From positions 1-64,000 of the forward strand of contig WTGY01000153.1 of the NCBI GenBank assembly GCA_011523365.1: 64,000 nucleotides of DNA, given 5' to 3'. Shown piece after piece: positions 1-57,332 of this stretch. The DNA comes from Caldilineaceae bacterium (GTDB taxonomy: Bacteria > Chloroflexota > Anaerolineae > Caldilineales > Caldilineaceae). Position numbers and translations under genes: made by a program. Under the pieces are notes generated by a model. That model was not told the origin of the DNA. It made no database searches and saw only the letters and a program-made list of their open reading frames with translations. How positions within the stretch are numbered: the stretch's first letter is position 1; every line of letters begins with the position of its first letter.

Positions 1-300
1 CAACGCCCCCTCTCCTACAACATGCCTGGTCGACCGGGTGTCGATATTGGTGACAGGTGCCTGTTCGAAGGTGTCTAGCCTGACTACGTCCCGTCAGTCC
101 CATCAGATCCCTGTATGTGCCGGCCTTGTGCCTGCCCTCGCATCCCCTCCAGTCAACGGACGCCACGGTAAGGTCAGGTCTAGCGCTTGCCCTGCGTTTC
201 TCCCAAAGCCGGCGCACAATTTCAGACGCCGCTGGCATGAATTTCCAGCTAGACTGTTCCCATCCCAAATCTGGGACGCACCCTTTCGCAACTGCCAGTG
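1..300. repeat. Dispersed intergenic repeat, copy 1 (cut by window edge)
   Basis: This stretch resembles 6741-7045. Both begin with CAACGCCCCC, run through CTCCTACAACATGCCT and GGTGTCGATATT, and end with a block around 'GAATT.CC.GC.AGACTGTTCCCA.CCC' (about 231-283 here, 6990-7042 there). The hairpin-bearing left part of the family, seen at 6700-6740 and 57012-57052, would lie just outside the window. No coding frame in it resembles a known protein. It sits upstream of the RodZ-like gene. Confidence 0.6.
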
Positions 301-5633: not shown

Positions 5634-5678
5634 CCGCTTGCTTTCGCCGTCTGCCAGCACCAGCCGCGCAAACGGCCA

Positions 5679-6587
5679 ATGAAAATCGGTGCAACCAGCA
5701 ACAAGACTCTGATGAGCGCATCAACACGTACAACCGCAACCCAACTCCTGGACAACGAGCGCTTCTGGCGCATCTTCGTCTGGACCGTCCTGCTCGCCGG
5801 CGCCGTTGTCATGTTCCTCCCCTTTCTCTGGCTGCTCTCCAGTTCCCTCAAGACCGAGCTCGCCATCTTTCGCTACCCACCCGAATGGATTCCGGATCCC
5901 ATCCAGTTCAGCAACTACGTCGACGCCTGGACAACCAGGCCCTTTGCGCTCTATGTCCGCAATACTATCGTTATCCTGCTGCTGAACGAGGTCGCAGTCC
6001 TTGTCTCCGCCTCCTTCTGCGCCTACGGCTTCGCTCGCATCGACTTCCCCGGCCGCAACGTCTGGTTCGCCATCCTGCTCGCCACCGTCATGCTGCCCGG
6101 CATCGTCACCATGATCCCCCAGTTCGTCATCTTCAGCCGCATCGGCTGGGTCAACACCATTCTCCCCCTCACTGTCCCCTTCTTTTTCGGCGGCGGCGCC
6201 TTCAATATCTTCCTCCTGCGCCAGTTTTTCCGCACCCTCCCCGCCGAGCTCGCCGACGCCGCCTACATCGATGGCGCCAGCGAAATCACCATCTACTGGC
6301 GCATCATGCTCCCCCTCGCCAAACCCGCCCTCGCCACCATCGCCATCTTCACATTCATCGGCACCTGGAACGACTTCATGGGCCCCCTCCTCTACCTCGC
6401 CAAGGACCCCAACAAATTCACAGTCGCCCTCGGCCTCGCCATGTTCCGAACCGCCTTCGCCGGCCGCACCCGCTGGGACCTCCTCATGGCCGCCTCCACC
6501 ATGATGATCGTACCCGTCATCTTCGTCTTCTTCGTCGCCCAACGCTACTTCATCCAGGGCATCGCCATCAGCGGCCTCAAAGGCTAG
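5679..6587 (+). CDS. Sugar ABC transporter permease (MalG/UgpE-like)
   Basis: The second CUT1 permease subunit. It has six predicted helices and the EAA loop [20 protein letters not shown], followed by the usual [19 protein letters not shown] helix. The ATG at 5679 gives 302 residues; an in-frame ATG at 5712 is an alternative and neither has a strong ribosome binding site. It is the last gene of the operon; no ATPase or enzyme gene follows. Confidence 0.92.
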
Positions 6588-6695
6588 ATCCTTCCTCCAA
6601 CCACCCTCACCGATCACGCTTCTCTCGTTGACAACCGTCAAGACCACGATCAATGACCGCTGTCATTCACTGACCACTGACTACTGCAGTTGTGC

Positions 6696-7045
6696 GGTCG
6701 GCCGCAAGCGGCCTCCCTTGTGCGGGGGCTCCGCCCCCGCAACGCCCCCCCCTCCTACAACATGCCTCGCCGACCTGGTGTCGATATTCGTAACGGGTGC
6801 CCTGTCGAAAGAGTTTCGCCAAACCACCTCCCGCCAGTCCCCGATCCAAGGTCACTCAGACAAACCTCGGCACTCTCTCCTCGCCCTGGTGCCTGCTCTG
6901 GGCCCTCCAAATCAAAGAGCCTCCCGGTTAGGCCAAGCCTCGCGCCTGCCCTGAGTCTCTCCAGGATCCCGACAGTATTTACAACCACCGCTGGAATGAA
7001 TTCCCCGCCAGACTGTTCCCACCCCGAATCCAAGACGCACCCACG
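6696..7045. repeat. Dispersed intergenic repeat, copy 2, with two perfect hairpins
   Basis: It fills most of the gap after the sugar permease. Hairpin I is GGCCGC-AA-GCGGCC (6700-6713). Hairpin II is TGCGGGGGC-TCC-GCCCCCGCA (6721-6741). The rest matches 1-300 imperfectly. The left 55 bp match 57006-57060 almost exactly, with a compensatory C-G to G-C change in stem I. No convincing gene is visible in 6588-7111. Confidence 0.7.
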
Positions 7046-14451: not shown

Positions 14452-15356
14452 GAGGTTCCCCCTGATGGCACGGACGAAATCGTTTGCTTCCACGACAACC
14501 CCAGCGCAGGCGGCCAACAGGGGGACGCAACGCGCCCCATTTGCCTGCTGCCATTCGGCCAACCCATCAAGTTGCTGTGGTGCTGACGATTCGCCACTTG
14601 TGCAACTCGAATACCAAAAAGGCGGAGATGACAATTTTTGTCGAGTGGGTCAAAACGATGTGGCTGCTTTGAAGCAAACCTGACTTCATCATTCACCCTA
14701 TCCAAGCTCCCGACCGCTCTGACGCTAACAGTCACAACCGCCTCTCACGATTTGATTGCCATCCTGTTCGGATGAGGCTACAATTGTCCCAGTCGCCCTT
14801 TACTTAGACTGGTAGGATACCAATGGCAGAACATTGGGTTACATCCTGATTTTCAAGTGTAACAAATGCGTATGCGACTTCGTGTCGCACCGCCACCTGA
14901 ATCCCTTAACTCGCTATGCGGCACTTTTTCCAAAAATCGATTGTGCACACCCATTAGCAAATGGAAACTTGATTGCACATTACTTGCTACAGTCCTCGGT
15001 TTTCTGGTCATAAGAACTATTGTAGCTACAGCTAGGTGCTACGCCAGTTCTGTCGGGTAAACTTCCACGCGGTCCCGGACCAAACCACGTCATGGAAGTG
15101 GCGTAACAGATCCAGCCGAGCTTGACTGAACACAAAATTATATTATAATACGTAGTCGCTGCAGCAGACACCTTCATAGGTGGGTTTTACAGTCACTTCC
15201 CAGGTAAATCGGGCTATTATTGAAAAGACGCCCCATGTCATGATGCAAATGCCTCATGCTCTGTTCTTCACCTGCTTGACTACTCGCAAGTTTATGCTCT
15301 AGTAGTATTTGGATTTGAAAGCGCAGCGGCTGCGCGCCGGGGGATCGGGAGGTACC
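14452..15356. other. Intergenic region without a recognised gene
   Basis: About 900 bp upstream of the 2-oxoacid dehydrogenase operon. It has an AT-rich stretch near 15130-15150, possibly promoter-related, and only short open frames with no known motif. Confidence 0.4.
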
Positions 15357-18565: not shown

Positions 18566-18647
18566 GTGTAGCCGTCAGGCAGGCGAACACCATATCTCAT
18601 ACCTCCCGAGGATCTACGCGTACCCGGCCTGACCCAGCCGGCGGCCT

Positions 18648-19712
18648 CTAGACCATCGCCCTGGGATAAGCCGGACCCTCCGTCCTGGCCGCCTCGTAGG
18701 TGGCCATCGCCACTTGGATCGTCTTCTTGGCGAACTCGGCGTCGAGGTCGGGCTGTCTATCCTCGATGATGCTGTCGATGAAGTCGCTGGCAGCTCCGTT
18801 GAACCCCTCGATAAAGTCCGAGGGAACCTCGATGCCTTCCGTCTCGGTCCCTTTTATCAGCAGGACCGGGGCAAAATCCAGCAGCTCACCAGCAGACCGC
18901 GTCACGTGGATGGAGCCCTTGGAGCCGTGTATCTCCATGTAGCCGTCGCCCCCGAAGTACTTGGTGCGGACCGTCATGTGCGGCGCGTAGACGTAGTCGC
19001 ACATCCCCAAACAGTCCATTCCTTCGAACTTCCAGATGAGCGCCGTCGGCATCTCCATGAAGTGCTCCTGGGTCTTGCCGACAATCCCGAAGACCTTCTC
19101 GATATCTCCGACCCACTTCATGGCGGTCGCGAATTTGTGCACACCGTCTTCATACACGATGCCCAAGGGGCTCAGCGTGGGATCGTTGCGCCAGACGAAC
19201 GCCTCAGGGTCTGTGTCGACCACGCTCCCCTCGGCCTGTCCACCGATTACGGCGTGAAACCGGACCAGGGACGGCTCGCCTATGGCTCCGGCGTCGAGTA
19301 GCTCCTTGGCCTTGAGGATGGGTGGGTAATAGATGCAGTTCTCGGTCATCCGGAACTTCGTCTTGGCCCTCCTGGCCGCCGCCACCATAACGTCCGCCTC
19401 CGCGACCGACGTGCACATCGGCTTCTGGCAGGACACGTGCTTGCCGGCGTCCAGACCGTCGACCGTCATGGTCGCGTGGTGTTGTGGTGGCGTCAGAAGC
19501 TCGACGGCATCGACATTGGGGTCGTTGAGGACTTGCTCGTAGTCCGTGTAGATCCTTGGCGAGATGCCCCACTGCTTCGCCCGAGCTTCGGCCCGGCCGG
19601 GGGTAATATCGCACAGCGCGATGACCTCGCAGTTAGGGTGCTGGAGGTAACCGGGGACGTTGAGCTGCGAGATGTTTCCGCACCCGACGATCGCGATTCT
19701 CACCTTGTCCAT
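18648..19712 (-). CDS. Gfo/Idh/MocA family oxidoreductase, tandem copy 1
   Basis: An NAD(P)-dependent dehydrogenase of the sugar/cyclitol type. The N-terminal Rossmann motif is VRIAIVGCGNISQLN, and the MocA-family signature AGKHVSCQKPMCTSVAEAD carries the usual EKP-like Lys, here QKP. The C-terminal alpha/beta domain contains YGGDGY-like FGGDGYMEIHGSKGSIHV. At 354 residues it has family length. The start is ATG at 19712 after AAAGGTAGG. It is identical to the next copy and lies 3' of an M81 and a TPP enzyme gene on the same strand. Substrate unknown; inositol- or sugar-like substrates are usual for the family. Confidence 0.88.
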   Translation of the reverse strand: MDKVRIAIVGCGNISQLNVPGYLQHPNCEVIALCDITPGRAEARAKQWGISPRIYTDYEQVLNDPNVDAVELLTPPQHHATMTVDGLDAGKHVSCQKPMCTSVAEADVMVAAARRAKTKFRMTENCIYYPPILKAKELLDAGAIGEPSLVRFHAVIGGQAEGSVVDTDPEAFVWRNDPTLSPLGIVYEDGVHKFATAMKWVGDIEKVFGIVGKTQEHFMEMPTALIWKFEGMDCLGMCDYVYAPHMTVRTKYFGGDGYMEIHGSKGSIHVTRSAGELLDFAPVLLIKGTETEGIEVPSDFIEGFNGAASDFIDSIIEDRQPDLDAEFAKKTIQVAMATYEAARTEGPAYPRAMV

Positions 19713-19757
19713 GGCGCCTACCTTTCTATCTAGCCGGTACTTCCCAGCCGGCGACCT

Positions 19758-20822
19758 CTAGACCATCGCCCTGGGATAAGCCGGACCCTCCGTCCTGGCC
19801 GCCTCGTAGGTGGCCATCGCCACTTGGATCGTCTTCTTGGCGAACTCGGCGTCGAGGTCGGGCTGTCTATCCTCGATGATGCTGTCGATGAAGTCGCTGG
19901 CAGCTCCGTTGAACCCCTCGATAAAGTCCGAGGGAACCTCGATGCCTTCCGTCTCGGTCCCTTTTATCAGCAGGACCGGGGCAAAATCCAGCAGCTCACC
20001 AGCAGACCGCGTCACGTGGATGGAGCCCTTGGAGCCGTGTATCTCCATGTAGCCGTCGCCCCCGAAGTACTTGGTGCGGACCGTCATGTGCGGCGCGTAG
20101 ACGTAGTCGCACATCCCCAAACAGTCCATTCCTTCGAACTTCCAGATGAGCGCCGTCGGCATCTCCATGAAGTGCTCCTGGGTCTTGCCGACAATCCCGA
20201 AGACCTTCTCGATATCTCCGACCCACTTCATGGCGGTCGCGAATTTGTGCACACCGTCTTCATACACGATGCCCAAGGGGCTCAGCGTGGGATCGTTGCG
20301 CCAGACGAACGCCTCAGGGTCTGTGTCGACCACGCTCCCCTCGGCCTGTCCACCGATTACGGCGTGAAACCGGACCAGGGACGGCTCGCCTATGGCTCCG
20401 GCGTCGAGTAGCTCCTTGGCCTTGAGGATGGGTGGGTAATAGATGCAGTTCTCGGTCATCCGGAACTTCGTCTTGGCCCTCCTGGCCGCCGCCACCATAA
20501 CGTCCGCCTCCGCGACCGACGTGCACATCGGCTTCTGGCAGGACACGTGCTTGCCGGCGTCCAGACCGTCGACCGTCATGGTCGCGTGGTGTTGTGGTGG
20601 CGTCAGAAGCTCGACGGCATCGACATTGGGGTCGTTGAGGACTTGCTCGTAGTCCGTGTAGATCCTTGGCGAGATGCCCCACTGCTTCGCCCGAGCTTCG
20701 GCCCGGCCGGGGGTAATATCGCACAGCGCGATGACCTCGCAGTTAGGGTGCTGGAGGTAACCGGGGACGTTGAGCTGCGAGATGTTTCCGCACCCGACGA
20801 TCGCGATTCTCACCTTGTCCAT
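19758..20822 (-). CDS. Gfo/Idh/MocA family oxidoreductase, tandem copy 2
   Basis: The protein is identical to the copy at 18648-19712 over all 354 residues, with the same start and upstream AAAGGTAGG. By orientation this copy is nearer the promoter, and 45 bp separate the two genes. With identical sequence there is no sign that the copies have diverged in function; a gene-dosage effect or an assembly duplicate are the simple explanations. Confidence 0.85.
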   Translation of the reverse strand: MDKVRIAIVGCGNISQLNVPGYLQHPNCEVIALCDITPGRAEARAKQWGISPRIYTDYEQVLNDPNVDAVELLTPPQHHATMTVDGLDAGKHVSCQKPMCTSVAEADVMVAAARRAKTKFRMTENCIYYPPILKAKELLDAGAIGEPSLVRFHAVIGGQAEGSVVDTDPEAFVWRNDPTLSPLGIVYEDGVHKFATAMKWVGDIEKVFGIVGKTQEHFMEMPTALIWKFEGMDCLGMCDYVYAPHMTVRTKYFGGDGYMEIHGSKGSIHVTRSAGELLDFAPVLLIKGTETEGIEVPSDFIEGFNGAASDFIDSIIEDRQPDLDAEFAKKTIQVAMATYEAARTEGPAYPRAMV

Positions 20823-56849: not shown

Positions 56850-57005
56850 ACGGGGTTAATTTGGGGGGAGCATCCCAAAAAGGGGGCGAACTTTCCCATG
56901 CCTCCGGTCGCAGCGGAGCCGCACCTATCTCGCGATCAACTCTGAGTCAGAGGAAAAGGCAGTTCTCTCTCCTCACTCCTCTTCCCTCTCTCCTCGCTTT
57001 TTTGG

Positions 57006-57060
57006 GCGGTCGGGCGCAAGCGCCCTCCCTTGTGCGGGGGCTCCGCCCCCGCAACGCCCC
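57006..57060. repeat. Dispersed intergenic repeat, copy 3, with two perfect hairpins
   Basis: Hairpin I is GGGCGC-AA-GCGCCC (57012-57025). Hairpin II is GCGGGGGC-TCC-GCCCCCGC (57034-57052). The flanking bases match copy 2 at 6696-6748; stem I differs by one base pair that is changed on both sides. It lies in the gap before the ABC exporter gene, where no other gene is seen between 56850 and 57332. Confidence 0.7.
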
Positions 57061-57332
57061 CGGTCCTGCTCGCGCCGCAGTGAGATTGAGGGCATTGTGA
57101 CGGTGCCCACCCGCGGCGGCCGTGCTTCGTCCCGTCCTCCGTCCCGCTCCCATAGGGGCCGGCCTTGTGCCCCCCCATCAACATGTCTGGCCAGCAGTAC
57201 CTACTCCCACAAGAAGTCCCGAGCCACCGACCGCTGACCACTGACCTCTATAGTTTCCCTTGACACGCATGTTAGAATCTATTTCTGCCGTGACCGCCCG
57301 TCTTCCATAGTAGCCGACGCTAGGCGAACCCA

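Follow-up and report, generated by a model that had tools for sequence, protein, structure and literature searches.

The repeat near 6.7 kb and 57.0 kb of the window, by which we mean the whole 64,000-nucleotide stretch of Caldilineaceae DNA analysed here, makes up the core of non-autonomous, MITE-like TIR transposons that form one genus-wide family. The orientation of its copies follows strand composition and not the direction of neighbouring genes. We assign a probability of about 75% to the whole reading, namely a MITE family spread through the genus, with amplified stem alleles and an orientation set at insertion. The locked orientation is the unexpected feature of this family, and a literature survey by titles and abstracts, in incomplete coverage, found no such strand-locked MITE family described.

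The window belongs to contig C178 of a genome (G000) of 5.67 Mb in 214 contigs. The original prediction of a ~55-bp repeat in which one stem-I pair is swapped on both sides while hairpin II stays the same was confirmed, with positions 6690-6749 and 57002-57061 being 95% identical (57/60). In the 6.7-kb copy, the conserved two-hairpin core lies at 6692..6749 (+ strand, as for all parts described here), with hairpin I at 6700..6713 (GGCCGCAAGCGGCC, allele GGCCG/CGGCC) and hairpin II at 6722..6740 (GCGGGGGCTCCGCCCCCGC, composed of GCGGGGGC TCC GCCCCCGC). The core of the 57.0-kb copy lies at 57004..57061, with hairpin I at 57012-57025 (GGGCGCAAGCGCCC, allele GGGCG/CGCCC) and at 57034-57052 the same hairpin II as at 6722-6740. 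The full unit is longer than the 55 bp first noted, reaching 5' to a TIR at 56866 in the 57.0-kb copy and 3' to ~7042 in the 6.7-kb copy. The 5' module of the 57.0-kb copy (56866..57003) begins with the 5' TIR GGGAGCATCCCA (56866-56877), and its 3' module (57062..57179) is of a second type, 89% identical to L073 up to 57179, which marks the limit of that match and not a mapped element end. The 6.7-kb copy has a type A 5' module (TGACCACTGACTACTGCAGTT) at 6668..6691 in which no 5' TIR was found, meaning that the 5' end of the copy has been truncated or rearranged; its 3' module (6750..7042) finishes with a decayed TIR, CAAGACGCACCC (7031-7042), where the orthologue in G005 (L204) has TGGGATGCACCC as its end. 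A third copy had been predicted at the window start, and the contig does begin within its core: the 3' part of an element occupies 1..283, comprising the final 10 nt of the core (1-10), the 3' module and the 3' TIR TGGGACGCACCC (272-283), and matches 6740-7042 at ~70%.

Two unrelated features of the window were also recorded. A 354-aa gene occurs twice in tandem with a period of 1110 bp; its 300-nt repeat copies (18633-18932 and 19743-20042) are 100% identical, and the pair reflects either recent duplication or an artefact of assembly. A group II intron D1-D4-7 match (RF02012, 75 bits) lies at 14706-14838 on the - strand.

The family extends well beyond the window. A 30-base core pattern, allowing at most one mismatch, matched the window's own genome 200 times and the reversed control 0 times, placing the repeat far beyond chance, and a similar pattern gave 432 matches in the single-contig relative G015. 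The core was present in 16/17 genomes of the Caldilineaceae genus versus 0/24 genomes outside it, and exact matches outside the window's own genome fell nearly all in Caldilineaceae (Chloroflexota) MAGs. The core pattern search gave 0 matches in the complete genome G004, a member of the genus, and copies per genome range from this 0 to >400. Aligned copies share a 58-nt core in the order GGGCGGTC, hairpin I, TCCCTTGT, hairpin II, AACGCCCCC, between variable flanks. A low-complexity leader (TGACCACTGACTACTGCAGTT) or a pyrimidine tract (CTCTCCTCACTCCTCTTC) often lies 5' of the core (L001-L030, L031-L096). Between 213394 and 214268 of G015, five cores stand head-to-tail at spacings of about 208-215 bp, with further close pairs elsewhere; these arrays are tandem amplifications of the core plus its 3' module.

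The boundaries of the elements identified them as transposable units, as had been suggested at the outset. Among aligned copies, elements of the G000 form start with GGGTGCATCCCA, finish with TGGGATGCACCC and are mostly 400-470 bp long, while most elements of the G015 form run about 284-300 bp from GTAACTACTCAGCC to GGCTTAGTAGTTAC; representative lengths of the two forms are about 460 bp and 286 bp, respectively. Both forms have a TSD of 8 bp. At least 7/8 flank bases were identical in 44/58 full elements of G015, 30 of them exactly, with 0.3 in permuted flanks; the corresponding figures were 11/23 in G000 and 6/13 in the named relatives, where the permuted-flank control gave an expectation of at most 0.3 throughout. 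Other TSD lengths tested on the same flanks showed no excess comparable to that at 8 bp. Filled and empty sites could also be compared: an element at 482.45-482.8 kb of G015 is absent at about 5666-5703 of the window, and the window copy at 6690 is shared by G005 and G014, whereas at this site no copy was seen in G001 and an IS66-type copy stands instead in G009. Of about 116 element clusters in G015, only 2 lack the core; the others contain it with or without either side module, and one 58-nt core occurs inside elements with two different TIRs. TIRs, a fixed 8-bp TSD, short length, many copies and the lack of a transposase gene are properties that the elements share with MITEs.

A candidate mobiliser resides in the same genomes. 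G015 contains six near-identical IS66-family elements of 1569 bp, encoding a 501-aa transposase and bounded by GTAACTACTAAGCC ends and 8-bp TSDs, and relatives of this element are present in G000 and G011. IS66 elements are described as having GTAAGCG ends and 8-bp repeats (PMC11946415). The TIR of the G015 MITE, GTAACTACTCAGCC, equals that of the resident IS66-family element, and the IS66 subterminal sequence CAGGGATAAAGGGTTGGCCAAGAAAGGC closely matches CAGGGATAAAGGGCTGGTCAAGACAGGC in the MITE 3' module by eye. The G015 form thus shares with IS66 a GTAA-start TIR, 8-bp TSDs and subterminal sequence; unlike IS66, the MITE lacks a transposase gene, and the main G000 form starts with GGGTGCATCCCA instead. 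An autonomous element with GGGTGCATCCCA ends was looked for at 30 TIR loci, which yielded just the MITE or contig ends. An IS66-type transposase may move the GTAA form in trans, and another transposase, none with such ends having appeared at the 30 loci, would move the GGGTGCATCCCA form.

Orientation was followed in samples covering about one third of the G015 chromosome and about 7% of G011. In G015, 80/82 copies lay on the C-rich strand where the masked absolute skew was at least 0.05 (p 1.4e-21), as did 104/116 at a masked window skew of at least 0.02. All 14/14 copies in G011 follow the sign of the GC skew, in two blocks, and neighbouring copies on one contig of G000 were on the same strand in 40/42 cases (a hand count among the 100 places listed). 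The skew itself is a property of the strand, since its sign did not differ between + and - genes within one skew window. Copies in G015 track it even within apparent inverted blocks at about 0.55-0.85 and 1.2-1.65 Mb, and their orientation is mixed in low-skew zones by block ends, mainly at 4.95-5.14 Mb. All copies were intergenic, with 0/145 inside genes. The downstream gene was co-oriented with the copy in 58/124 cases and the upstream gene in 41/124, a mild bias (p 0.0002).

When in the life of a copy this bias arises can be judged from the age of the copies. Polarity held for 15/17 copies with exact TSDs, the two exceptions being located in mixed zones, and for 57/60 partial, decayed copies; because the young copies show no less polarity than the decayed ones, a bias at insertion is favoured. 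We propose that orientation is fixed when an element inserts at the replication fork or close to it, and that the asymmetric core, and not just the transposase, would govern it. In strongly skewed regions, autonomous IS66 copies are oriented 3:2 (n=5), against 80:2 among MITE copies (Fisher p 0.015). A more specific form of this proposal, that the 58-nt core is a portable module giving DDE-type mini-transposons a fork-relative insertion orientation with any transposase, is tentative, and we rate it somewhat below even odds.

The main rival to a bias arising at insertion is that MITEs insert both ways and that selection or instability soon removes copies whose core faces the wrong way relative to the fork. 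Such removal would fit a near-perfect polarity and the lack of polarity of the autonomous IS66 copies, and inverted repeats are known replication obstacles (PMC7202029). A slow purge, however, is not visible in the comparison of exact-TSD and decayed copies, so that removal would have to be very fast; we consider this explanation unlikely, though a serious one.

An alternative that makes the core a functional, polar motif of the chromosome, akin to KOPS or AIMS and serving segregation or repair, which the MITE spread and which is kept one way, is improbable. It would account for polarity along each replichore, the intergenic position of copies and the conservation of the core across two TIR types. 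However, copy number varies from 0 (G004) to >400 within one genus, private copies decay, and octamers of the core found outside elements were no more polar than composition predicts. A KOPS-like octamer within the core was ruled out, its polarity being that of composition only and G004 having no core. Outside elements, the octamer GGACAAAA, which is not itself C-rich, stood 71:4 on the C-rich strand in the sampled stretches of G015, making it a candidate KOPS-like motif.

The usual skew rule places the origin of G015 near 1.98 Mb, at a sharp negative-to-positive switch at about 1.984 Mb. In both G015 (L223-L261) and G011, dnaA and one 16S gene lie by the positive-to-negative GC-skew switch; this would mean that dnaA is located far from the origin or else that the genus has a C-rich leading strand. 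An assignment of the leading strand was dropped, as dnaA, rRNA, parS-like sites and skew conflict.

The swapped stem pair had been taken as a sign that pairing is under selection, pointing to a structured RNA. Three stem-I alleles, each fully paired, make up 242/258 cores (GGGCC/GGCCC 176, GGCCG/CGGCC 49 and GGGCG/CGCCC 17). The remaining 16 cores, counted after two spurious matches were excluded, carry private stem changes, of which 13 are unpaired, 2 form G·T pairs and 1 is two-sided and compensatory; the change is one-sided in 15/16. Unpaired changes in other copies are what the original prediction named as evidence against it, and the claim of selection on pairing did not survive them. Hairpin II argues the same way, with an A·C mismatch that is fixed in 127 copies of the sample, almost all of them G015 copies. 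The paired change is best read as a set of amplified alleles and not as pairing selection on every copy: the stem-I alleles may have spread through amplification of a few perfectly paired masters, possibly created by template switching, which can make compensatory pairs in one step (PMC8794818). In one copy (L024) the hairpin-II loop is inverted from TCC to GGA, an outcome that can arise when the template switches between arms. As master-allele amplification, possibly via template switching, accounts for the paired change, no RNA selection is needed. Where two repeat copies differ by coordinated base-pair changes, caution is accordingly needed, as such changes may reflect amplified alleles and not selection on RNA structure.

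A structured RNA (sRNA, riboswitch or terminator) selected for pairing is very improbable on these grounds, even though all three common alleles in 242 cores pair perfectly and the core folds as RNA with z-scores of -1.6 to -2.7. The private changes and the fixed mismatch oppose it, no Rfam match was found, and orientation follows strand composition and not the flanking genes, which are more often divergent than convergent. A terminator was ruled out, convergent flanks being the rarest class. The other suggestion made at the outset, REP/BIME-like elements moved by a RAYT (Y1) transposase, is scarcely credible: REP/BIME repeats are also short, intergenic, hairpin-rich and present in hundreds of copies, and ssDNA transposition would account for replication polarity, but PF01797 (Y1) was absent from G000, G015 and G011 while control genomes gave matches, and the elements instead have TIRs and 8-bp target duplications.

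Bacterial IS-derived MITEs such as MITEAba12 (PMC6382973) and the Tn3-derived TIMEs (PMC13367494) are likewise short, non-coding and present in many intergenic copies, with TIRs matching an IS and fixed-length TSDs. Unlike these, the family described here is locked in a single orientation with respect to strand asymmetry, in as many as hundreds of copies, and a single two-hairpin core sits inside elements with different TIRs. Orientation follows the replication fork in IS200/IS605, in Tn7 with TnsE and in group II introns, which rely on ssDNA, TnsE or reverse-splicing chemistry. The ends of the MITE, by contrast, resemble those of a DDE transposon, and DDE transposons with two near-equal ends have no expected preference for landing orientation.

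It is therefore a surprising contrast that hundreds of MITE copies are oriented although the autonomous element with the same ends, judged from five copies, apparently is not. If the core is indeed a portable module, replication-coupled, oriented transposition would be encoded in the cargo DNA and not in the enzyme. As a natural experiment, the family can show how a replication fork distinguishes orientation. The way its copies point adds to GC skew as a marker of replichore structure and past inversions.
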